Assembly: GCA_030729925.1 (NCBI GenBank)
Contig: JANQWK010000089.1
Span: 1-64,000, forward strand
Length of the DNA stretch: 64,000 bases
Reading direction: 5' to 3'
DNA from: Saprospiraceae bacterium
GTDB taxonomy: Bacteria; Bacteroidota; Bacteroidia; Chitinophagales; Saprospiraceae
The translations under genes and the position numbers were made by a program. Position 1 is the stretch's first letter, and the number at the start of each line of letters is the position of its first letter. The notes beneath the pieces are model-generated. The model searched no databases. It saw nothing but the letters and a program-made list of their open reading frames with translations, and was not told the origin of the DNA. Below are positions 28,746 to 41,047 of the stretch, in pieces.

Positions 28746-29915
28746 TTATTTCGCGCGGGGGAGTTTGATTGTGAAGGTGGTTCCCTTGCCTTCGACGGAT
28801 TTTTTCACGAAAATTTTTCCGTTGTGGTATTGTTCGACAATCCTTTTTGCGAGGGATAGTCCCAGCCCCCAGCCGCGTTTTTTGGTGGTATAGCCGGGTT
28901 GGAAAACGGTTTTGAACTTGTTGCCGGGGATCCCTTTTCCGGTATCGGACAGGTCAATATACACGAATGCGGCATCGGCATCCACGGTTGCCTGGATTTC
29001 ACCTTTCCCTTCCATGGCATCGAGGGCATTGCGCAGGAGATTTTCGATGACCCATTCGAACAGGTGTTGGTTGATGGCAACAAGGAGGGGTGGGGTGTCC
29101 CGTGGATCGGGAAAAACAAAACTCACCTTTCTGGGAGCGCGTCGTTCCATGTAGGTGCGACACTTGTGAAGTTCGGCAAAGATATTGGACACTTCGAGGT
29201 GGGGTGCGGAGCCGATCTTGGAGAAGCGGTCGGCGATGAGTTCGAGTCGGTTGATATCGTTGCTGAGTTCCACGACCACCTCCTGGAGTTCGGGATCTCC
29301 GCCTCGGATTTCGCGGAGGTGTTCGAGCCAGGCTACGATAGCCGATATTGGGGTGCCGAGTTGGTGGGCGGTTTCTTTGGCCATCCCTACCCACACGCGG
29401 TTTTGTTCGGCTTTTCTGGAGTAGTTGAAACCCAGGTAGCCCAAAAATACGAAGGCGGCGATGAGGAGTAACTGGATCAGGGGAAAAAAGCGGAGCTGGG
29501 TCAGGATTTTGGACTCCTTGTAATAAATTTTGTAAGCATATCCTTCGATGGGTTCAAACCCTTCGGCTTCCATGTCGGCCACCACTTGTTTGAGGTACAC
29601 GTAATTGGTATCGAGGTCGGAACCAAAATTGGCGGATGCGATCACCTCTCCGCGCTCGTCCACGAGGATCACGGGGATACTGGTGTTGGACTCGATAATT
29701 TTGGTATGCAGGGTATAATCGCAGTTGTCAATGTTATTTTCGTCAATATCATTGATCAGTTCCTGCGCCATTTCGTAATGTTTGACCTTGCGTGCTTCTT
29801 CCTCTGACAGGCGCTGGTAGAGGTAATTGGTATTGAACATGGACACCGAGATGATCAGCACCCCCGCGATAGCCAGGTATAACTTCCAGTTGGATCTTTG
29901 TCGGTAGATATCCAT
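28746..29915 (-). CDS. Membrane sensor histidine kinase (orphan)
   Basis: 389 residues. Two transmembrane helices (residues about 12-32 and 142-163) enclose a sensor domain of about 110 residues. The dimerisation/phosphoacceptor region has GMAKETAHQLGTPISAIVAW with His184, a variant H-box common in Bacteroidota. The ATPase domain has ENLLRNALDAMEG (N box), DTGKGIP (G1) and GWGLGLSLAKRIVEQ (G2). No response regulator gene is in the window, so its partner is elsewhere. It lies 12 bp downstream of the DUF3089 lipoprotein gene on the same strand, which suggests a shared transcript and perhaps a related envelope role. Confidence 0.93.
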   Translation of the reverse strand: MDIYRQRSNWKLYLAIAGVLIISVSMFNTNYLYQRLSEEEARKVKHYEMAQELINDIDENNIDNCDYTLHTKIIESNTSIPVILVDERGEVIASANFGSDLDTNYVYLKQVVADMEAEGFEPIEGYAYKIYYKESKILTQLRFFPLIQLLLIAAFVFLGYLGFNYSRKAEQNRVWVGMAKETAHQLGTPISAIVAWLEHLREIRGGDPELQEVVVELSNDINRLELIADRFSKIGSAPHLEVSNIFAELHKCRTYMERRAPRKVSFVFPDPRDTPPLLVAINQHLFEWVIENLLRNALDAMEGKGEIQATVDADAAFVYIDLSDTGKGIPGNKFKTVFQPGYTTKKRGWGLGLSLAKRIVEQYHNGKIFVKKSVEGKGTTFTIKLPRAK

Positions 29916-29927
29916 GTATGAACGATG

Positions 29928-30968
29928 TTACTGTTTCAGGAACGTATTGACCCTTAAAATAGCATTATTTCTGACGTTGAGATAGAACAAATTGTAATCT
30001 CCTACGTGGTAGTTGGGGTTCCAGTACAAAAAGCTGCCCGGAAATCGGGGTTTTTTGATCCAAACCAGACCCTCGTGCACCTGTGCATCGCTAAGCTCAG
30101 GCAGGATTTTTTCAAATTTCATCAGGACAGCTCCCTGGTTGATGTTTTTCGGGGCATAGGTGTCGTCCGTGGTCCAGGTCAGGGGGTTGGTGGCGACAAT
30201 CTCTACATCTTTGGGGTTGAATTTGGGATAGCGCCCCGTTTTATAGGTGCGCCAACTGCAAAAACAGCCTGTTTGTTCCGGAGTGGTACAGGGTGGAATG
30301 TTGTCAAAATAGGTACTTTCTACGGGCATGCCTACGAGATAGGCGGCCACGAGTTGCCGGGAAAGGGGTTTGCCGTCAAAAAATTCTTTTATAAGCGTCT
30401 TTGCGTGAGTGGTTCCCTGACTATGCGCGGCAATGATGATGGGCCTTCCCTGGTTGTAGTGCTCCAGGTAATATTGAAAAGCATTTTTTACATCTTCGTA
30501 GGCCAGCTGAAAGGCTTCCATGGCCTTGCTGCGGTTTTTGGTGTAATACGCCTGCAGGTGGGCTTGTCGGTAGCGGGGGGCATAGACTTTACCGGCGCCG
30601 TTGAACAGACTCGCTTGGTACAAAATGCTGCTTTGGTCGGTTTTCTGGTTGATACTTTCGTCCATGAGCGGCGCATTCCAATAAATGGCACCGCGTTTGG
30701 AAGAATGGCTGGTAGGGTGGAGGAAAAAAACATCTGCCTGGGCGGTATCTTGGGCATTGACGAGCTTAGGACTGGGTGTTCGGTCAGCAGGATCTTCTTT
30801 TTGCGGCAGCGCTGCCCAGAAATCAGGGTTGGCGTAGTCGGGTCGGATGTCGGTAAAGTCCGACGCGCTACCGGATTGCGAGGCTACTCCACAGGAAGTA
30901 GTCCAGAGTAACAGGAGCAGTACCAGGGGTTTGAAGAAAAGAAGGGATGGTGTAAGGTTTGTTTTCAT
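29928..30968 (-). CDS. DUF3089 alpha/beta-hydrolase-like lipoprotein
   Basis: 346 residues. The N-terminus is hydrophobic and ends LLLLLWTTSCGVASQ, a plausible lipobox with Cys26, so the protein is probably a lipoprotein. The rest matches the DUF3089 pattern: DVFFLHPTSH, APRYRQAHLQAYY, then the nucleophile elbow AAHSQGT and LVAAYLVGMPV. The Ser in HSQG suggests a serine hydrolase of the lipase/esterase fold; substrate unknown. It is the first gene of a two-gene minus-strand unit with the histidine kinase. The divergent neighbour starts close by. Confidence 0.88.
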   Translation of the reverse strand: MKTNLTPSLLFFKPLVLLLLLWTTSCGVASQSGSASDFTDIRPDYANPDFWAALPQKEDPADRTPSPKLVNAQDTAQADVFFLHPTSHSSKRGAIYWNAPLMDESINQKTDQSSILYQASLFNGAGKVYAPRYRQAHLQAYYTKNRSKAMEAFQLAYEDVKNAFQYYLEHYNQGRPIIIAAHSQGTTHAKTLIKEFFDGKPLSRQLVAAYLVGMPVESTYFDNIPPCTTPEQTGCFCSWRTYKTGRYPKFNPKDVEIVATNPLTWTTDDTYAPKNINQGAVLMKFEKILPELSDAQVHEGLVWIKKPRFPGSFLYWNPNYHVGDYNLFYLNVRNNAILRVNTFLKQ

Positions 30969-31605: not shown

Positions 31606-32475
31606 ATGAAAATGAATAAGTTATATTTTTTGCTTTTGCTTGCTTTTCCTGGACTAAGTTTGGCTCAGGTAGATCCGGAGAAGGATGCCGTTCAGGCTGT
31701 TGTGATGGCGATGTTCGATGGAATGCGCGCGGGAGACAGCAGCGCGGTGGGTGTGTTGTTTTTGCCGCAGGCGACCATGCAAACGGTGATGGTGACCGAC
31801 AATGGCCCCGAGATCCGGAATGGTTCGGTGGCCGGTTTTTTGAATGCAGTAGGGACACCGAGGGAGGCGGTTCTGGATGAGCGGATCTGGAGCTACGACA
31901 TTCGCATAGACGGACATTTGGCGAATGTGTGGACGGAATATGGGCTGTACTACGGGGATCGGTTTATGCACTGTGGTGTGAATAACTTCCAGTTGTTTAA
32001 GTCAGACAGCGGCTGGAAAATTTTGTCTATCACCGATACCCGTAGAAAGGATGCAGATTGCTGGCAGGTGCAACCCGATCTGGCCGGTGAGCTGGGGACC
32101 TTGATAGACAGCTGGCATGTCGCAGCAGCGCAGGCAGATGAGGAGGTGTTTTTTGGAAGCATGACCCCCGACGGCATTTATCTGGGTACGGATGCCGGCG
32201 AACGCTGGGAGCGCGATGTGTTTCGCGATTGGGCAAAGGCTGCTTTCGAACGGGAAACTGCCTGGGATTTTAAGCCGCATAGCCGACAAGTGTATTTTTC
32301 TGCCAATGGGCAAATTGGCTGGTGGGAAGAATTGCTGGATACCTGGATGGGGCCATGCAGGGGTTCGGGGATCGCTGTGAAAACTCCCCAGGGTTGGCGC
32401 ATCAAACACTACAACCTCGCTTTTACCGTGCCTAACGAGAAGGTAGATGCGGTGAAGGAGCTGCTGAAACCCTGA
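31606..32475 (+). CDS. Exported protein with two NTF2-like domains
   Basis: 289 residues with a signal peptide (LYFLLLLAFPGLSLAQ). Residues about 25-140 form one NTF2-like domain (VQAVVMAMFDGMRAGD ... GVNNFQLFKSDSGWKILSI). Residues about 150-285 form a second, SnoaL_3-like domain with WWEELLDTWMGPCRGSGIAV and GWRIKHYNLAFTVPNEKV, a block conserved in Bacteroidota proteins. It directly follows another NTF2-like gene, so three such domains are encoded in a row. Function unknown; a periplasmic binding role is likely. A 12-bp stem hairpin follows the stop. Confidence 0.85.
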   Translation: MKMNKLYFLLLLAFPGLSLAQVDPEKDAVQAVVMAMFDGMRAGDSSAVGVLFLPQATMQTVMVTDNGPEIRNGSVAGFLNAVGTPREAVLDERIWSYDIRIDGHLANVWTEYGLYYGDRFMHCGVNNFQLFKSDSGWKILSITDTRRKDADCWQVQPDLAGELGTLIDSWHVAAAQADEEVFFGSMTPDGIYLGTDAGERWERDVFRDWAKAAFERETAWDFKPHSRQVYFSANGQIGWWEELLDTWMGPCRGSGIAVKTPQGWRIKHYNLAFTVPNEKVDAVKELLKP

Positions 32476-32643: not shown

Positions 32644-32679
32644 GAATTTGTTAATTAAAGATTTGTTAAAGCGAAATGC

Positions 32680-33696
32680 ATGGCTTTGCTGGAGTTTGCC
32701 CAAGAGGGTATTTTTTGTCCTTTGGCGGGGGTGTATATTGATCCCTGGAAACCGGTCAAACGGGCATTGATTACCCACGGACATGCCGATCATGCGCGCT
32801 GGGGATCTCAGTCGTATTTGTGTACGCATGCAGCCCGCCCGGTGATCCGACTCAGGCTGGGACCGGTCAATTTGTCGTCCGTGGATTATGGCGAACCGGT
32901 GTACATCAATGGGGTGCGTTTTAGTTTTTGGCCGGCCGGCCACGTGGTGGGTTCTGCACAGATCGAGGTGTCCTACAAGGGGGAGACCTGGGTGGTTTCC
33001 GGGGATTACAAGACGGAATACGATGGCTTGTCAGAGGCGTTTGAACCCCGCCGCTGCGAGTACTTTGTTACGGAGTCCACTTTTGGTTTGCCGGTGTACA
33101 ACTGGTCGCCACAGTCGGAAGTGTTTGAGGCGATCAACAATTGGTGGGCCGAGAACCGGGAGGCCGGAAGGGTGACCTTGCTCACAGGTTACGCGCTGGG
33201 TAAGGCACAGCGCATTATCCGACACCTGGATACGGCTATCGGACCGATTTATACGCATGGGGCTATAGAGAATGTGAACGAGGTGCTGCGCGCTCAAGGG
33301 GTGGCACTTCCAGATACTATTCGATTAAGTTCCGGTATGCAGGCTAAAGATGTGGCAGGGGGAATTATTGTGGCGCCTCCTTCGGCGGCAAGCGGCCCCT
33401 GGTTGAAAAAGTTCAAGGACTTGTCCGTAGGTGTGGCATCGGGGTGGATGTCTATCCGCGGGGCACGCCGCCGAAGAGCGGTGGAGCGGGGGTTTGTGCT
33501 CTCCGACCATGCTGATTGGCGCGGGCTGAATGCCGTGATCGAGGCTACCGGGGCTTCTACGGTGTATGTGACCCACGGCTACACAGAAATCTTTTCCCGT
33601 TGGCTGCGCGAAAAAGGATTGCAGGCTTTTGAGCTGAAAACGGAATTTCAGGGGGAATTGCACGAGATGAATGAGGCTGATACTACTGAAGATTAA
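32680..33696 (+). CDS. Ligase-associated DNA exonuclease, metallo-beta-lactamase fold
   Basis: 338 residues. The metal-binding motif THGHADH (32-38; His33, His35, Asp37, His38) marks the beta-lactamase/CPSF nuclease fold, and later histidines in SFWPAGHVVGSA, LSDHADW and YVTHG complete the two-metal site. The order and sequence match the exonuclease of the four-gene ligase-associated repair cluster. It likely trims DNA ends during repair in the cytoplasm. The stop is 12 bp before the ligase gene. A possible operator-like inverted repeat lies 37 bp upstream of the start. Confidence 0.92.
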   Translation: MALLEFAQEGIFCPLAGVYIDPWKPVKRALITHGHADHARWGSQSYLCTHAARPVIRLRLGPVNLSSVDYGEPVYINGVRFSFWPAGHVVGSAQIEVSYKGETWVVSGDYKTEYDGLSEAFEPRRCEYFVTESTFGLPVYNWSPQSEVFEAINNWWAENREAGRVTLLTGYALGKAQRIIRHLDTAIGPIYTHGAIENVNEVLRAQGVALPDTIRLSSGMQAKDVAGGIIVAPPSAASGPWLKKFKDLSVGVASGWMSIRGARRRRAVERGFVLSDHADWRGLNAVIEATGASTVYVTHGYTEIFSRWLREKGLQAFELKTEFQGELHEMNEADTTED

Positions 33697-33708
33697 GCGA
33701 CTACAATC

Positions 33709-35304
33709 ATGAAAGACTTTGCATCGCTGGTGATTGCACTGGATCAGACGACCAAAACGAATGAAAGGGTACGCGCACTGGCGGAGTACCTGGGTAAGGT
33801 GAGCGATCGGGATAAGCTTTGGACAATTGCCATTTTGTCGCACCGCCGACCGAAACGGACGGTAACGACGACCCTGCTGCGCAATTGGGCAGCAGAAAAG
33901 GCAGATTTGCCGCAGTGGTTGTTTGAGGATTCCTATCATGTGGTGGGCGATCTGGCTGAGACGATCGCATTGCTCCTGCCTCCGCCTTCCCAACATTCAG
34001 ATCGGACGCTTTCGGATTGGATTGCGTTTATCCGAGAGCTGGAAGTCTTGTCTGAAGCAGACAAAAAGGCTCGCATCCTGGAGGCCTGGGATAGTTTGGG
34101 ACACGAGGAGCGCTTTATTTTCAACAAACTGATTACGGGCGGTTTTCGCATTGGGATTTCCCAAAAGCTGATGGTGCGGGCACTGGCGCTGTTTACGGGC
34201 CTGGAGGAAAATCTCCTTGCCCATCGGCTCATGGGAGCTTGGTCGCCGGATACCGATCGTTTTGATCAGTTGCTGATCGAGGATAATCCTTCCGATCAGC
34301 TTTCCCGCCCCTATCCCTTTTATCTTTGTTATGCGCTGGAGGGTTCGGTAGAGGAGTTGGGCGATCCGGCCAACTGGATGGCGGAGCGCAAATGGGATGG
34401 GATTAGGGCACAACTGATTGTGCGAGCGGGTAATTTGTTTGTCTGGTCCCGAGGTGAGGAACTGATGACGGATAAGTTTCCGGAATTTGAGCCCCTGGCT
34501 GGGGTGTTGCCGGACTACACGGTACTCGACGGCGAAATCCTGCCCTTCCGCGAGGGCATTCCCCTGGATTTTCAGGCCCTGCAAACCCGCATCGGGAGAA
34601 AACAGGTCACCCGCAAAGTGTTGCAGGAGGTTCCCGTGATCCTGATGGGGTACGATCTGCTGGAACTGGGGGGGAAGGACCTGCGGCAGCATAGTTTTGC
34701 CGACAGGCGGAAGGCTTTGTGTCACCTGCTGGAACAGCCCGATATGCCTGAAGTGCTGAAAATTTCTCCCGAACTGCCTTTCACAGATTGGGCAGCCGTA
34801 GCCCGCGAAAGGGCCGATTCCAGAAAATATCATTGTGAGGGCCTGATGCTCAAACACAAAGACTCGACTTATCAGCAGGGACGGAAAAAAGGGGAGTGGT
34901 GGAAATGGAAGGTAGATCCGATGACCATAGATGCGGTGATGATTTATGCCCAGCAAGGTCATGGCCGACGGGCAAATTTGTTTACCGACTTCACTTTTGC
35001 CGTGCGCGATGGCGAGGCCTGGGTGCCCTTTACAAAGGCGTATTCCGGTCTGACCGACGCAGAATTTCAGGCCATTACCCATTGGGTGCGCAAAAATACC
35101 CTGGAGCGCTTCGGCCCCGTGCGAAGCGTAAGTCCGGTGCAGGTGTTCGAACTGGCTTTCGAAGGCATTAGCGCTTCTCCCCGACACAAATCCGGTATCG
35201 CGCTGCGCTTTCCGCGAATGCTGCGCTGGCGCAAAGACAAACAACCGGAAGCGGCCAATACCCTGCAGGATTTGAAGGATATGCTGGAAAGCTATGGAGA
35301 ATAA
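33709..35304 (+). CDS. ATP-dependent DNA ligase of the ligase-associated repair cluster
   Basis: 531 residues. The adenylation motif I is ERKWDGIRAQ with the nucleophile Lys228 (K-x-D-G). Upstream is an N-terminal helical DNA-binding domain (about 1-200); downstream the motif WWKWKVDPM and the OB-fold end are present, as in archaeal/eukaryotic type I ligases and LigB/LigC relatives. It seals nicks with ATP, unlike the NAD-dependent housekeeping LigA. It follows the exonuclease by 12 bp. The stop at 35304 precedes the protease ATG by 58 bp, and the next repair gene comes only after that protease. Confidence 0.94.
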   Translation: MKDFASLVIALDQTTKTNERVRALAEYLGKVSDRDKLWTIAILSHRRPKRTVTTTLLRNWAAEKADLPQWLFEDSYHVVGDLAETIALLLPPPSQHSDRTLSDWIAFIRELEVLSEADKKARILEAWDSLGHEERFIFNKLITGGFRIGISQKLMVRALALFTGLEENLLAHRLMGAWSPDTDRFDQLLIEDNPSDQLSRPYPFYLCYALEGSVEELGDPANWMAERKWDGIRAQLIVRAGNLFVWSRGEELMTDKFPEFEPLAGVLPDYTVLDGEILPFREGIPLDFQALQTRIGRKQVTRKVLQEVPVILMGYDLLELGGKDLRQHSFADRRKALCHLLEQPDMPEVLKISPELPFTDWAAVARERADSRKYHCEGLMLKHKDSTYQQGRKKGEWWKWKVDPMTIDAVMIYAQQGHGRRANLFTDFTFAVRDGEAWVPFTKAYSGLTDAEFQAITHWVRKNTLERFGPVRSVSPVQVFELAFEGISASPRHKSGIALRFPRMLRWRKDKQPEAANTLQDLKDMLESYGE

Positions 35305-35310
35305 AAAAAG

Positions 35311-35340
35311 TTTGTCTAATTTAAAGGCTTGTTGTATTTG
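35311..35340 (+). promoter_or_regulatory. Possible internal promoter before the zinc protease
   Basis: TTTG at 35311-35314, an 18-bp spacer and TGTATTTG at 35333-35340 (7/8 match to TAnnTTTG). It lies in the 58-bp gap after the ligase gene and could drive the protease, helicase and nuclease separately from the first two genes. Confidence 0.4.
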
Positions 35341-35362
35341 TCAAAACGTAAATCCATACTTT

Positions 35363-37798
35363 ATGAAAAAATACCTTTTTTGGGTACTGCTTCCCTTCCT
35401 GTTGCAAGCCTCAGGAGCAGCCGCGCAGGGCAATATTGCTTCCAAGGTGAGCAGCATGCAGGCCTTTCCAGGCTATTTCAATTATTATTGGGATGCCCAG
35501 GCGGGCAAAATCTGGTTGGAAATAGATAAGTTCGACCAGGAGTTTTTATATGTCAATTCGCTGACCGCAGGGGTGGGTTCCAATGATATTGGCTTGGATC
35601 GCAATCAGTTGGGCGGCGAACATGTAGTAGTTTTTGAGCGCAGCGGCCCAAAAATACTACTTCGGGTGAAAAACCTGAAGTTCAGAGCGGTGAGCGACAA
35701 TCCGGAAGAGCAACAGTCGGTAGAGGAAGCTTTTGCTTCTTCCATCATCTGGGGCTTTAAGGTGGAAGCGGAAGAGGACAATAAGGTATTGGTGGACTTC
35801 ACTCCTTTCCTCATGCGCGATGCACACGGCGTGGTGCAGCGTCTGCGCAGCTCGCGGCAGGGCACTTACCGACTGGAAGAGTCGCGCTCGGCGATGTTCA
35901 TGGAAAGGACAAAAAATTTCCCGCAAAACTCAGAGTTTGAGGCTACGCTTACGTTTACAGGTACCCCAGAAGGCGGGTGGATCCGTTCGGTGACTCCGGT
36001 GGCCGATGTGGTGAGCGTGCGGATGCACCATTCTTTGGTGCAGTTGCCCGATAATAACTACCAACCCCGGGTTTATGATCCCCGTTCGGGCTACAATGAC
36101 CTGGCCTACTACGATTATGCTACCCCGATCAGCGAACCGCTCGTGAAGCGCTTTATTGTGCGGCATCGCCTGGAGAAGAAGAATCCCAATGCAGCGGTGA
36201 GCGAGGCGGTGGAACCTATCGTCTATTATCTGGATCGGGGCACTCCCGAGCCAATTTTGTCTGCGCTTATCGAAGGGGCTTCCTGGTGGAACCAGGCTTT
36301 CGAGGCAGCCGGCTACAAGGATGCTTTTCAGGTGAAGTTGCTGCCGCCCGATGCGGATCCGATGGATGTGCGTTACAATGTGATCAACTGGGTACACCGC
36401 TCTACCCGGGGATGGTCTTACGGAAGCTCCGTGACCGATCCGCGTACCGGAGAAATCATCAAAGGGCATGTATCCTTGGGTTCTCTCCGCGTCCGGCAGG
36501 ATTTTCTGATCGCTCAGGGACTGATCCGGGCGTATGAGAATGGCGAAAAACCGGATCCGCGTTTGGAACAGCTGGCACTGGCTCGCTTGCGGCAGTTGTC
36601 GGCCCACGAGGTAGGTCATACTATAGGTCTGGCCCACAACTTCGCTTCCAGCGTCAACGACCGCGCCTCTGTGATGGATTATCCCCATCCTTTTATCGCC
36701 CTGGATGCCAATGGCAAGGTGGACTTTTCAAAGGCTTATGATACCGGGATTGCAGCCTGGGATAAGCGCACCATTTTGTATGGGTACCAGGATTTCCCCG
36801 ATAATGTGAATGAGGCAGCTGCCCTGAAAGGGATTTTAACGGAGAATATCAAGATGGGACTGCATTATATTTCCGATGAGGATGCCAGACCTGTGCATGG
36901 TGCCAACCCCTATGGTCACCTATGGGACAATGGTGCTTCTGCAGTAGGAGAATTGGAGCGCATGAAAGCCCTTCGGGCAAAAGGACTGGCGGGTTTTGGC
37001 GAGTGGAATATCCCTGTGGGAACTCCCATGAGCAACCTGGAGAGCGTGCTGGTGCCCCTTTATCTGATGCACCGCTATCAGGTTGAGGCCGTATCGAAAC
37101 TAATCGGAGGGGTACATTATACGTATGCCGCTCGCGGGGACGGTCAGCCCCTGAACGAAATGGTGGCACCCGAACAGCAAAAAGAGGCCCTGGAGGCCCT
37201 GTTGGCAACCCTGGATCCTGCATTTTTGGCTGTGCCGGAGTCTGTTATCGCCCTGATTCCGCCGCAGGCAAAAGGATATTCCCGCAACAGAGAGTTGTTC
37301 AAAATTCATACCGGACTGACCTTCGATCCCATCGGGGCAGCCGAGAGTTCTGCGGCCAATACCTTGAAGTTTTTGCTTAACCCCGAGCGACTGACCCGAT
37401 TGGTAGAGCAGTATGCCCGCGATCCCGAACAGCGTTTGTCGCTGGCCGCTTATCTGGATAAAATTATCCAGTCCGTAGAAGTTCGCCCCGGGGATGCTGT
37501 TTTCCACCAGGAAATTGCTCGGATGACCGAAAAACTAGTCCTGCAACACCTGCTGGAACTGGCTGGGGATAATGGTATTATGCGCCAGGTGAGCGCGGTG
37601 GCCCGACTAAAGGTGGCAGAAATGGAACAGCGCCTGCAGACAGTGGCTGCCAGCCCGAAAGACCCGAACCAGGGGGCACATTATATTTATATGTTGGATG
37701 AAATTGCGCGCTACAAGGCCGATCCTGCTGCATACCAGGTGCCGCCTTCACCCGCCATGCCCGATGGTTCGCCTATCGGCTGCGACGGAATGTTCTAA
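35363..37798 (+). CDS. Secreted zinc-dependent metalloprotease (DUF5117/DUF4953 type)
   Basis: 811 residues from ATG 35363, which gives a signal peptide (YLFWVLLPFLLQASGAAAQG); an in-frame start at 35294 would overlap the ligase gene and hide it. Residues 415-425 are HEVGHTIGLAH, the long HExxHxxGxxH zincin motif, followed by ASVMDYPHP with the Met-turn. N-terminal beta-rich regions match the DUF5117/5118 set seen in large Bacteroidota metalloproteases. It should be a periplasmic or outer-membrane-facing protease. It lies between ligase and helicase genes of a DNA repair cassette, 5 bp before the helicase start. No link to DNA repair is known to me. Confidence 0.9.
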   Translation: MKKYLFWVLLPFLLQASGAAAQGNIASKVSSMQAFPGYFNYYWDAQAGKIWLEIDKFDQEFLYVNSLTAGVGSNDIGLDRNQLGGEHVVVFERSGPKILLRVKNLKFRAVSDNPEEQQSVEEAFASSIIWGFKVEAEEDNKVLVDFTPFLMRDAHGVVQRLRSSRQGTYRLEESRSAMFMERTKNFPQNSEFEATLTFTGTPEGGWIRSVTPVADVVSVRMHHSLVQLPDNNYQPRVYDPRSGYNDLAYYDYATPISEPLVKRFIVRHRLEKKNPNAAVSEAVEPIVYYLDRGTPEPILSALIEGASWWNQAFEAAGYKDAFQVKLLPPDADPMDVRYNVINWVHRSTRGWSYGSSVTDPRTGEIIKGHVSLGSLRVRQDFLIAQGLIRAYENGEKPDPRLEQLALARLRQLSAHEVGHTIGLAHNFASSVNDRASVMDYPHPFIALDANGKVDFSKAYDTGIAAWDKRTILYGYQDFPDNVNEAAALKGILTENIKMGLHYISDEDARPVHGANPYGHLWDNGASAVGELERMKALRAKGLAGFGEWNIPVGTPMSNLESVLVPLYLMHRYQVEAVSKLIGGVHYTYAARGDGQPLNEMVAPEQQKEALEALLATLDPAFLAVPESVIALIPPQAKGYSRNRELFKIHTGLTFDPIGAAESSAANTLKFLLNPERLTRLVEQYARDPEQRLSLAAYLDKIIQSVEVRPGDAVFHQEIARMTEKLVLQHLLELAGDNGIMRQVSAVARLKVAEMEQRLQTVAASPKDPNQGAHYIYMLDEIARYKADPAAYQVPPSPAMPDGSPIGCDGMF

Positions 37799-37803
37799 GC
37801 GGA

Positions 37804-40266
37804 ATGGATCATCAAGCATCAGACATGGATTGGATCCAATACGGTCGGGAATGGTTCTCACGGATGTCGTGGGAACCATTCCCTTTCCAGATAAGCGCAT
37901 GGGAGGCCTATCTTTCAGGGAAAAACGGGGTCGTCAATGCTCCCACGGGGAGTGGTAAGACGTATTCGCTGCTTATCCCCATCCTGCTCGAGTATATGCG
38001 GACTCAGGCCGTATCGCCTTCGGCAAAAAAACCGGGACTACAGGCGATCTGGATCACCCCCATCCGGGCACTTGCGAAGGAAATTAGTCTGGCCGCCGGT
38101 CGCGCGATTAGCGGAATGGGGCTGGACTGGGAGGTAGCGATACGGACGGGCGATACGGATGCCAATACCCGGCAGAAACAAAAGAAAAACCCTCCGCAAC
38201 TGTTGATTACCACTCCGGAAAGCCTGCACCTGATTTTGGCCTCGAAGGGCTACGACCAGTGGCTGGGCGAATTGCAGGTGGTGGTCGCAGACGAATGGCA
38301 CGAACTAATCGGTTCCAAAAGGGGGGTTCAGGTCGAACTAGCGCTTTCCCGAATGCGCGCCCTCTTGCCCCATCTTAAAACCTGGGGGATTTCAGCTACG
38401 ATTGGCAACCTGGAAGAAGCCATGGAGGTCTTGTTTGGCTACGGCGATACCGCCAAAAATGCCTGTCTGATCCGCGCTTCCCGCCAGAAAGCGATTGCGG
38501 TAGAAACCCTTTTGCCGGAGGCGATAGAAACCTTTCCCTGGGCGGGACACTTGGGCATTAAAATGCTGGAGCAGGTTTTGCCGATTATCGAAAACCACAA
38601 AAGCACGCTGATTTTTACGAATACAAGGGCGCAGTGCGAGATCTGGTACCAGCAGTTGCTGGATCTGGCACCCGATCTGGCAGGAGCCATCGCCATGCAC
38701 CACGGGTCTATCAGCAGACCTTTGCGCGACTGGGTGGAAAATGCCCTGCATGAAGGCATTCTGAAAGCTGTTGTGAGTACCTCGAGTCTGGATTTGGGGG
38801 TGGACTTTCGCCCGGTGGAAGCTGTGGTACAGATTGGCAGTCCTAAGGGGATTGCCCGCTTCCTGCAACGGGCAGGCCGCAGTGGCCACAGGCCGGGAGC
38901 AGTTAGTAAGGTTTATTTTGTGCCCACCCACTCGCTCGAATTGCTGGAAGGAGCTGCGCTGCGCAGCGCGGTAGGAGAAGGGATCATCGAGCAGCGCGTG
39001 CCGTACATCCGGTCATTCGATGTGCTGATCCAGTACCTGGTCACCCTGGCCGTTTCGGACGGATTCCGGCCGCAGGTCATTTTTGAGGAGGTCAAACAAA
39101 CCTTCTCCTTTCACAGTCTGACAGAAGCCGAATGGGCTTGGGTACTGCGTTTTATACAGACAGGCGGGGCGAGTCTGGATGCTTACGATGAATACAAAAA
39201 GGTGGTGGTAGAGGATGGGGTGTACAAGGTACTCAACCGGCGTACGGCCATGCGCCACAGGATGTCTATCGGTACCATCGTCAGCGATGCCAGCATCCGG
39301 GTACAGTTTGTCGGGGGAAAATCGCTTGGCACCATTGAAGAGTGGTTTATCGCCCAGTTACAGCCGGGCGACACCTTCTGGTTTGCCGGGCACAGCCTGG
39401 AATTGGTGCGGGTCAGGGAGATGGTCGCACAAGTGCGCAAGTCCAACAAAAAAACCGGTCGCATTCCTGCCTGGATGGGAGGACGCCTGCCCCTTTCATC
39501 GGAACTATCGGTGTTTATCCGCGACAAAATGGACGATATCCGGCAGGGGAAGGCCCTGGATATCGAACTACAGGCACTTCGCCCCCTTACCGACCTGCAA
39601 CAATCGCGATCGGCCATACCGGGTACCGGAGAACTGTTAATCGAATATTTCAAAACCAAAGAAGGTTACCACCTGTTGTTGTACCCCTTTGAAGGCAGAG
39701 CAGTACACGAAGGCATGGGAGCGCTCTTTGCCTGGCGCATCTCCCGCCTGCAACCCCTTTCCTTTTCCATCGCCATGAACGACTACGGTTTTGAACTCCT
39801 CTCCGAAAAACCCATTCCAATCGAGGAGGCTCTGGAACAGGGACTATTTTCCACAGTCAACCTGTACGAGCATATTCAGCAAAGCATCAACAGCGTAGAA
39901 ATGGCCGGGCGGCGATTTCGCGACATCGCAGGAATTTCCGGGCTCATTTTCAAAGGATTGCCGGGCAGCGAAAAAAAGGAGCGCCATATCCAGGCCTCTG
40001 CCCAACTGTTTTTTAAAGTATTTCAGGACTATGAACCGGACAACCTGCTGCTGCTGCAAGCGTATGACGAAGTGATGACCTTTCAGCTCGAAGAAATGCG
40101 ATTGCGGCGCGCGCTTGAAAAAATGACTGCCCAGCAGCTGGTATTTTGTTGCCCCGAAAAACCTACCCCTTTTGCCTTTCCCATCATGGTGGATCGCTTG
40201 CGCGAAAAACTAAGCTCCGAGTCGCTGGCAGAGCGAATCAAAAAGATGCAGTTGCAATTTACCTGA
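37804..40266 (+). CDS. Lhr-type DEXH helicase of the ligase-associated cluster
   Basis: 820 residues. Motif I NAPTGSGKTYS (45-55), Ia WITPIRALAKE, II VADEWHEL (DEWH), III SATIG, and motif VI QRAGRSGHRPG are all intact. The region after the two RecA domains matches the winged-helix and Lhr-core domain. In Pseudomonas Lhr-Core this is a 3'-5' translocating, ATP-dependent helicase that also unwinds RNA-DNA hybrids. It should act with the exonuclease, ligase and PdeM nuclease. Start ATG 37804 is 5 bp after the protease stop, so the pair is surely on one transcript; a second ATG (37825) is possible. Repeat remnant R5 follows 8 bp after the stop. Confidence 0.94.
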   Translation: MDHQASDMDWIQYGREWFSRMSWEPFPFQISAWEAYLSGKNGVVNAPTGSGKTYSLLIPILLEYMRTQAVSPSAKKPGLQAIWITPIRALAKEISLAAGRAISGMGLDWEVAIRTGDTDANTRQKQKKNPPQLLITTPESLHLILASKGYDQWLGELQVVVADEWHELIGSKRGVQVELALSRMRALLPHLKTWGISATIGNLEEAMEVLFGYGDTAKNACLIRASRQKAIAVETLLPEAIETFPWAGHLGIKMLEQVLPIIENHKSTLIFTNTRAQCEIWYQQLLDLAPDLAGAIAMHHGSISRPLRDWVENALHEGILKAVVSTSSLDLGVDFRPVEAVVQIGSPKGIARFLQRAGRSGHRPGAVSKVYFVPTHSLELLEGAALRSAVGEGIIEQRVPYIRSFDVLIQYLVTLAVSDGFRPQVIFEEVKQTFSFHSLTEAEWAWVLRFIQTGGASLDAYDEYKKVVVEDGVYKVLNRRTAMRHRMSIGTIVSDASIRVQFVGGKSLGTIEEWFIAQLQPGDTFWFAGHSLELVRVREMVAQVRKSNKKTGRIPAWMGGRLPLSSELSVFIRDKMDDIRQGKALDIELQALRPLTDLQQSRSAIPGTGELLIEYFKTKEGYHLLLYPFEGRAVHEGMGALFAWRISRLQPLSFSIAMNDYGFELLSEKPIPIEEALEQGLFSTVNLYEHIQQSINSVEMAGRRFRDIAGISGLIFKGLPGSEKKERHIQASAQLFFKVFQDYEPDNLLLLQAYDEVMTFQLEEMRLRRALEKMTAQQLVFCCPEKPTPFAFPIMVDRLREKLSSESLAERIKKMQLQFT

Positions 40267-40273
40267 TAAAAAT

Positions 40274-40312
40274 GGTTACCGATACCCCCCCCTCTAAGGT
40301 GCCTTGCACCTG
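40274..40312 (+). repeat. Degenerate dispersed repeat, copy R5
   Basis: GGTTAC (40274-40279) is followed by a run of C instead of the TATTAATA block and by only the right half of the palindrome (TAAGGTGCCTTGCACCTGT, 40295-40312). The unit seems to have lost the middle and the left arm. It begins 8 bp after the helicase stop and reads in the same direction. Confidence 0.7.
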
Positions 40313-40396
40313 TACAGAAAAATTTTGGCCTTTCCCAGCACTTTTCCCGACAAAAATGGACATCTTGCGACAAATCCGAATTTTAGTCAGACCCGC

Positions 40397-41047
40397 ATGA
40401 CCGGAACAGCTACTCTGGAATTTTTGGGACAAACCCTCCACCTGCATCCTTTGAAGGCTCTTTTTTGGGAGGAAGCCCGCACCTTGATGATCGCCGATCT
40501 GCACGCTGGCAAGACCAGCCATTTTCGGAAGCATGGGATACCGGTGCCGGTAGCGGCAGCCGATGCGGGGACAGACCGGCTGATCAGTGTTTTGCTGGAC
40601 TTCAGGCCGGAAAGGGTATTGTTTCTGGGCGACCTCTTCCACAGCACTTACAACAGGGAATGGATTACCCTTGCCGAACTGATCTTGCAGTTTCGCGAGG
40701 TTACTTTCGAACTGATCCCCGGTAACCACGATATCCTGGATTTGGGCATTTATGCCGATGCGGGACTAAAAATACTACCGGAATCGGTTGCAGAAGGCCC
40801 CTGGTGGATCACCCACCATCCGGTCAATGACCCACCCTCCGGTCTGTATAACCTCGCAGGTCATATCCATCCGGGGGTTCGGCTCAGCGGTGCAGGTAAA
40901 CAAACCCTTCGTTTACCCTGTTTCTATTTTGGACAAAAACAAGGAATCCTACCCGCTTTTGGAACCTTCACCGGAACCGCACAGATCCCGGTAAAAAAGG
41001 GCGATAGGATCTATGTAATTGCTGCCGATCAGGTAATTAAGGTATAA
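40397..41047 (+). CDS. pdeM: Ligase-associated endonuclease, metallophosphoesterase fold (PdeM)
   Basis: 216 residues from ATG 40397; an upstream in-frame codon at 40304 would include part of repeat R5 and is unlikely. The binuclear metal motifs are complete: IADLHAG (Asp34, His36), FLGDLFH (Gly78, Asp79), PGNHD (109-112 block), THHPV and LAGHIHPG. This is the manganese-dependent endonuclease of the ligase-associated cluster (MPE in Pseudomonas). It is the fourth repair gene of the operon and the last. Its stop lies inside the promoter-like element of the thioredoxin gene. Confidence 0.92.
   Translation: MTGTATLEFLGQTLHLHPLKALFWEEARTLMIADLHAGKTSHFRKHGIPVPVAAADAGTDRLISVLLDFRPERVLFLGDLFHSTYNREWITLAELILQFREVTFELIPGNHDILDLGIYADAGLKILPESVAEGPWWITHHPVNDPPSGLYNLAGHIHPGVRLSGAGKQTLRLPCFYFGQKQGILPAFGTFTGTAQIPVKKGDRIYVIAADQVIKV

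Follow-up and report, generated by a model that had tools for sequence, protein, structure and literature searches.

Why should a gene for a zinc protease, probably an exported one, lie in the middle of a DNA repair cassette? The question is raised by a 64,000-nucleotide stretch of a Saprospiraceae genome (GenBank assembly GCA_030729925.1, contig JANQWK010000089.1, positions 1 to 64,000; hereafter the window), which carries genes for a ligase-associated exonuclease (EXO), a cisplatin-damage-response ATP-dependent DNA ligase (LIG), a putative metzincin-like zinc protease (PROT), a ligase-associated Lhr-type DEXH helicase (HEL) and a ligase-associated phosphoesterase/endonuclease (PdeM). A first-pass annotation made from the letters alone had described the four repair partners in this order, with an 811-residue HEVGHTIGLAH protein between ligase and helicase. 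We confirm that the five genes lie where it put them: each of the four partners exceeds its own curated NCBIfam cut-off, all are on one strand in the order EXO-LIG-HEL-PdeM, and PROT stands inside the cassette, with 58 bp between the LIG stop and its ATG and 5 bp between its stop and the ATG of HEL. LIG and HEL are not adjacent in the window, and there is no uninterrupted LIG-HEL operon.

All four members of the known ligase-associated DNA damage response cassette (EXO, LIG, Lhr-Core and MPE, which is PdeM; TIGR04120-TIGR04123) are thus present in the usual order, but their EXO-LIG and HEL-PdeM halves are parted by the protease gene. In the survey of PMC8301817, MPE is found near blhr in 276 of 319 genomes. 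PMC10140301 describes an operon in which the ligase and the Lhr helicase are joined by a phosphodiesterase and a metallo-beta-lactamase-fold protein, and treats the role of the ligase-associated cassette as not settled. Our answer is that a resident protease gene was probably relocated into the repair neighbourhood long ago and has been kept there as relic synteny.

Gene content, gene order and linkage can be observed directly in relatives. We analysed 199 genomes of the larger family group (the GTDB family of the window genome) and a second sample of 398; many genomes are fragmented, so that linkage counts are lower bounds, and several counts are made among the matches listed. PROT orthologues (120 rows, told apart from paralogues on the basis of match score and identity; one extra row in G230, where a broken copy gave a separate match for its second half, is excluded) occur in 114 of the 199 family genomes, and LIG and HEL in 92 each. 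PROT lies within 10 kb of HEL in 6 of the 67 genomes with both, against about 0.3 expected under uniform placement, and in all six it comes first and on the same strand. The distance between the matches is 8 bp in the window, 24 bp in G318 and in G233, 2.7 kb in G362, 3.9 kb in G242 and 6.5 kb in G328; in all, three genera besides the window's and g142 carry PROT upstream of HEL on the same strand, 2.7-6.5 kb away. The second genus with a tight arrangement, g142, has PROT-HEL-PdeM in each of the seven genomes (7 of 7) in which both genes are among the matches listed for the 398-genome sample, and the gap is 9 bp by the open reading frame (ORF) maps of G318 and G233. Its members are 94-98% identical in PROT and HEL and are therefore counted as one lineage. 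The same sample adds G409 (g118), with PROT and HEL at 2.7 kb. On the other side of the gene, LIG and PROT lie within 10 kb in 4 of 67 family genomes with both; the spacing between matches is 61 bp in the window and 68 bp in the sister species G252, whose contig stops inside PROT, so that the HEL side is not covered. Among the matches listed, PROT paralogues (29 rows) are near HEL in 0 of 20 cases and near LIG in 0 of 19.

Since the sister species has LIG-PROT and g142 has PROT-HEL-PdeM, the position of PROT at the cassette is not a recent one-off insertion. The first-pass annotation had proposed that absence of the protease from this spot in all relatives would mark a recent insertion; the sister species and g142 keep it here. 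Its suggestion of a chance insertion accordingly falls as a recent event and survives only as an old one, given the linkage in relatives. Retention in other Saprospiria is itself partial. It is seen in the sister species, in g142 and, loosely, in the three genera with PROT upstream of HEL, while 61 of the 67 family genomes that have PROT and HEL show no contig on which the two lie within 10 kb of each other. Among 30 order-level HEL loci with flanks of up to 1.5 kb, PROT occurs only at the window's own locus and LIG in 10.

A further gene ties the two neighbourhoods together. In many Saprospiraceae a thioredoxin-like gene, C5 (Thioredoxin_7 match, PMSR below cut-off, signal-peptide-like start by eye), stands between LIG and HEL or beside PROT. 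Across the 199 family genomes, 58 have both C5 and HEL, and in 13 of these the two are neighbours, always divergent; by the same count C5 is near LIG in 7 of 56, all convergent; and near PROT in 9 of 64, seven divergent and two in tandem. At E<=1e-30 it has no match in the window genome or in its sister, the latter 88% complete. The orientations of C5 relative to HEL, LIG and PROT fit one order, EXO> LIG> C5< PROT> HEL> PdeM>, and each adjacent pair of this order occurs somewhere in the sample. On a single contig of G309, EXO> LIG> C5< is followed by PROT>, and about 10 kb of intervening genes separate C5 from PROT. We built a tree by a quick method from PROT, HEL and LIG (89 rows), restricted to genomes that have PROT or HEL. 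Of the 13 C5-HEL genomes it places 12 in one clade, and of the 9 C5-PROT genomes all 9 in a second (Fisher 2e-5, kinship ignored); every PROT-HEL genome on the tree also falls in this second clade. The tree program warned of two long branches that meet, G348 and G184. We also observe that three genes upstream of EXO in the window, encoding a histidine kinase (28746-29915), a DUF3089 protein (29928-30968) and a SnoaL-like protein (31606-32475), recur beside PROT in G242 and G323; in G323 their order is consistent with a local inversion, the inverted segment keeping the same flanking genes.

The pairwise neighbours suggest an ancestral order and a direction of change. On this reading PROT is a resident gene for a protease of metzincin type; such genes are widespread in Bacteroidota, and the product is probably exported. 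In the simplest history, C5 would have come to lie between LIG and HEL first. PROT would then have been placed between C5 and HEL in an ancestral genome from which one large subclade of Saprospiraceae descends, the second clade of the tree, giving the order above. Later inversions, insertions and gene losses would have broken this order up, differently in each lineage, and in the window's genus the loss of C5 would have left PROT directly between LIG and HEL. PROT, HEL and PdeM are probably co-transcribed through proximity, and the HEL half of the cassette may be read from the PROT leader. The protease most likely acts outside the cytoplasm and would have no mechanistic part in DNA repair; we infer both the co-transcription and the lack of functional coupling.

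We assessed whether PROT belongs to the repair machine by comparing it with the established partners. Adjacency was scored in loci L069-L148 and L250-L289, the window excluded; these loci were partly picked for linkage, so that the fractions are comparative only, and two of them (L274 and L275) come from one genome, G451. EXO directly precedes LIG in 23/23 cases and PdeM follows HEL in 24/55, while LIG directly precedes HEL in 10/65 and PROT does so in 8/65, all eight from g142 by the maps. By this measure the known LIG-HEL pair is no better held than PROT-HEL. Within the family, 82 genomes have both LIG and HEL; the two genes are no more than 10 kb apart in 20 of them and less than 300 bp apart in 10, both figures being lower bounds because of contig breaks. 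In a wider search we took the best 80 of 579 PROT loci, with flanks that extend to 10 kb unless the contig ends sooner; 70 of the 80 are from Bacteroidota, and cassette genes appear in the flanks of three, all titled Saprospiraceae or Lewinella. With 6 of 67 family genomes and 3 of 80 PROT loci, PROT is not a conserved fifth member of the cassette. In a PADLOC search, EXO, LIG, PROT and PdeM had no match at E<=0.001, and HEL matched 57 defence-helicase families (best DpdJ, 214 bits), which we read as shared helicase domains and not as a link to defence. The evidence leans against a repair role for PROT, and a link to repair is a weakly supported possibility.

The first-pass annotation had also suggested that PROT may have its own promoter at 35311-35340. 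The loose pattern TTTG-N17-21-TNNATTTG is present there, but it occurs three times in the window against 2.08 expected from shuffles, which is chance frequency, and the stricter TANNTTTG form has no match at this site. The sister species reads ATTG...TGTATTCA at the same place; the rest of its leader is well conserved, the boxes only partly. A sigma-70-like site was looked for in the LIG-PROT leader and none was found. A promoter of its own is possible for PROT.

Several observations weigh against the history of an old relocation. The whole proposed order is seen in no sampled genome. The second clade (46 rows), made up of genera g1, g118, g123, g135, g142, g148, g151 and g155, reaches 93% in the Shimodaira-Hasegawa-like approximate likelihood-ratio test and is not starred, 45 of the 89 tree rows have fewer than half of the columns filled, and G205, a C5-HEL genome, is placed in the 'wrong' clade; the fragmentation of many genomes, which makes linkage counts lower bounds, belongs here too. 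PROT occurs together with LIG in 67 genomes and with HEL in 67, where 53 are expected (Fisher 5e-5, kinship ignored), which could mean function or shared ancestry. Finally, among the 75-base leaders compared in the window, no other pair is as similar as those of EXO and PROT (rank 1 of 820).

The last two points feed a different explanation, in which an exported protease has been recruited to a repair regulon and envelope damage or DNA uptake is answered together with repair. PROT-HEL-PdeM would then be a single operon, and EXO-LIG another whose promoter matches that of the first. The tight, operon-like PROT-HEL spacing in two genera, the window's and g142, also favours it, although the members of g142 amount to one lineage. 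The similarity score of the two leaders is reached by 51 of 5000 shuffles (about 1%) and by 38 of 2701 pairs of AT-rich windows, and both contain TTTGT(n)TAATT(n)AAAG (32647-32660 for EXO, 35311-35326 for PROT), which has three copies genome-wide, two of them at these leaders. This pattern, however, was built after seeing both sites, and no such likeness is found in the three relatives readable at both leaders: the score is reached by 388 of 2000 shuffles in G328, whose PROT start is doubtful, by 1791 in G323 and by 328 in G235. Of the 10 further genomes listed for this test, six were without one leader and one without a PROT locus. The scarcity of cassette genes at PROT loci and the 61 family genomes in which no linkage is seen also argue against coupling, which we consider quite unlikely. 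The link from envelope stress or DNA uptake to repair that the first-pass annotation had floated thus draws on the raw co-occurrence and on a likeness confined to the window, and is opposed by the three loci in 80 and by a PROT-HEL pairing less faithful than EXO-LIG. Its fullest form, a true PROT-HEL-PdeM operon in at least two genera that co-expresses an exported metzincin with the helicase, with EXO-LIG under a look-alike promoter and the repair cassette thus under envelope-linked control, is in our judgement very unlikely.

PROT might instead have arrived near HEL by several independent chance insertions at an insertion-prone site. Other genes are indeed found between LIG and HEL in the family, namely C5, an amidohydrolase (G158), a rhamnosidase-like protein (G044) and a 4349-residue ORF (G196). 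Repeated chance events nevertheless sit poorly with the regularity of the arrangement, as PROT is upstream of HEL and on its strand in 6/6 cases, C5 faces away from HEL in 13/13, the surroundings of PROT and of HEL are connected through C5, and LIG-C5 and PROT still stand in order in G309; we regard this account as unlikely. A last possibility, that PROT entered the strain of the window recently or that its position is an artefact of assembly, would suit the lack of PROT at the exact spot in most sampled relatives. It is contradicted by the PROT-HEL-PdeM of g142 and by the sister species, where LIG and PROT share a contig and the leader is conserved (unless misassembly affects that contig as well), and it is hardly credible. 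The old relocation is in our judgement the most probable explanation.

The nature of the protease can be described from its profiles, its alignment and a structural model (Table 1). PROT scores 235 bits with PF16313 (DUF4953; gathering cut-off 24.2) and 150 bits with PF17148, and its match to PF17162 (DUF5118), 25.4 bits, is slightly below the cut-off of 27. Its domain order is identical to that of the DUF5118-DUF5117-DUF4953 proteins (PF17162/PF17148/PF16313, 'Met-zincin'), from which it differs in the sub-cut-off PF17162 part and in the position of the window copy beside repair genes. Among the papers searched, none names DUF5117, DUF4953 or DUF5118, two contain the term 'Met-zincin', and none was found on Bacteroidetes zincins. 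PROT is 53-68% identical to 31 homologues picked from the 80 wider-search loci, and in all 32 aligned proteins H415, E416, G418, H419, G422 and H425 are invariant, as is SVMDYP, which we take to be the Met-turn. The window genome has two further PROT-type copies, both on other contigs. The N terminus is signal-peptide-like, in concordance with the earlier annotation, and a crude charge/hydrophobicity test is passed by 42 of 44 PROT ORFs longer than 760 residues (window and loci L069-L148); the product is probably exported. The mechanical ORF begins at 35294, within the 3' end of LIG, and we used the downstream ATG.

Table 1 Features of the locus in the window, and two example C5 genes in loci of relatives.
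Feature	Position	Strand	Basis or remark
EXO, ligase-associated exonuclease	32680-33696	+	TIGR04122, 467 bits, cut-off 325
LIG, cisplatin-damage-response ATP-dependent DNA ligase	33709-35304	+	TIGR04120, 625 bits, cut-off 400
LIG-PROT leader, 58 bp, with proposed promoter-like site	35305-35362	+	mostly conserved in sister species
PROT, DUF5118-DUF5117-DUF4953 putative metzincin-like protease, 811 aa	35363-37798	+	Pfam profiles; start ATG
Signal-peptide-like N terminus of PROT, MKKYLFWVLLPFLLQASGAAA, 21 aa	35363-35425	+	sequence; cleavage site by eye
Zinc motif HEVGHTIGLAH, residues 415-425	36605-36637	+	alignment of 32 proteins
SVMDYP, putative Met-turn, residues 436-441	36668-36685	+	invariant in 32/32 aligned proteins
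HEL, ligase-associated Lhr-type DEXH helicase	37804-40266	+	TIGR04121, 1109 bits, cut-off 850
PdeM, ligase-associated phosphoesterase/endonuclease	40397-41047	+	TIGR04123, 211 bits, cut-off 150
C5 in L084	7628-8656	+	
C5 in L099	11121-12140	-	

With MMP (matrix metalloproteinase)-, karilysin- and fragilysin-type metzincins PROT shares HEXXHXXGXXH and the Met-turn-like SVMDYP; unlike them, it has large strand-rich N-terminal and helical C-terminal parts without a clear match. An AlphaFold2 model built from 32 sequences has a mean local confidence (pLDDT) of 88 and a global score (pTM) of 0.87. In VIA-align, residues ~242-477 match collagenases and karilysin with Z 8.2-8.5 and a root-mean-square deviation (rmsd) of 3.2-3.5 over 145-150 residues (collagenase 2clt, Z 8.5, rmsd 3.2 over 150 residues; karilysin 4in9, Z 8.2), with myroilysin at Z 7.8, while unrelated helical rows reach up to 8.3. 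As these fold scores are near those of unrelated rows, the 'metzincin-like' label rests mainly on the motif. Foldseek with the model gave nothing at E<=0.001, its top rows (E 0.003-0.024) being two M1 aminopeptidases and profragilysin-3. A single-protein search for relatives of solved structure likewise gave none at E<=0.001, and the 32-sequence profile gave nine matches at E 0.24-0.56, eight of them MMPs. We rejected Peptidase_M43 (PF05572, pappalysin-type) as an assignment: PROT has no profile match to it at E<=0.001 and it is absent among the Pfam hits of PROT; the three PF05572 matches of the window genome are on contigs C61, C88 and C93, and PROT is on C89.

Three observations concern individual genes in relatives. 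In G235 an EXO homologue lies near PROT (L145:4470-5462, -), yet the genome gives no match to LIG at E<=1e-80. LIG identity to the window splits into two groups, >=50% and 32-45%, the lower comprising G134, G223, G297, G205, G269, G305, G279, G352, G355, G353, G283 and G282; 8 of these 12 genomes still have HEL at 59-63%, which points to a possible ligase replacement. The PROT match of G044 (L140; G044:C22:234515-236824) carries one in-frame TAG.

The locus shows by example how an attractive guess from operon structure, joining a protease to repair, weakens when retention of the protease is set against that of established partners, and the comparison gives the PROT arrangement a relative age. 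In part of the Saprospiraceae PROT has long stood beside the repair genes, most likely as a relic. The results further suggest that the cassette in Saprospiraceae splits in two, with EXO-LIG firmly kept together and HEL-PdeM more loosely, and this is relevant to the question of which members of this so far poorly understood cassette need each other.

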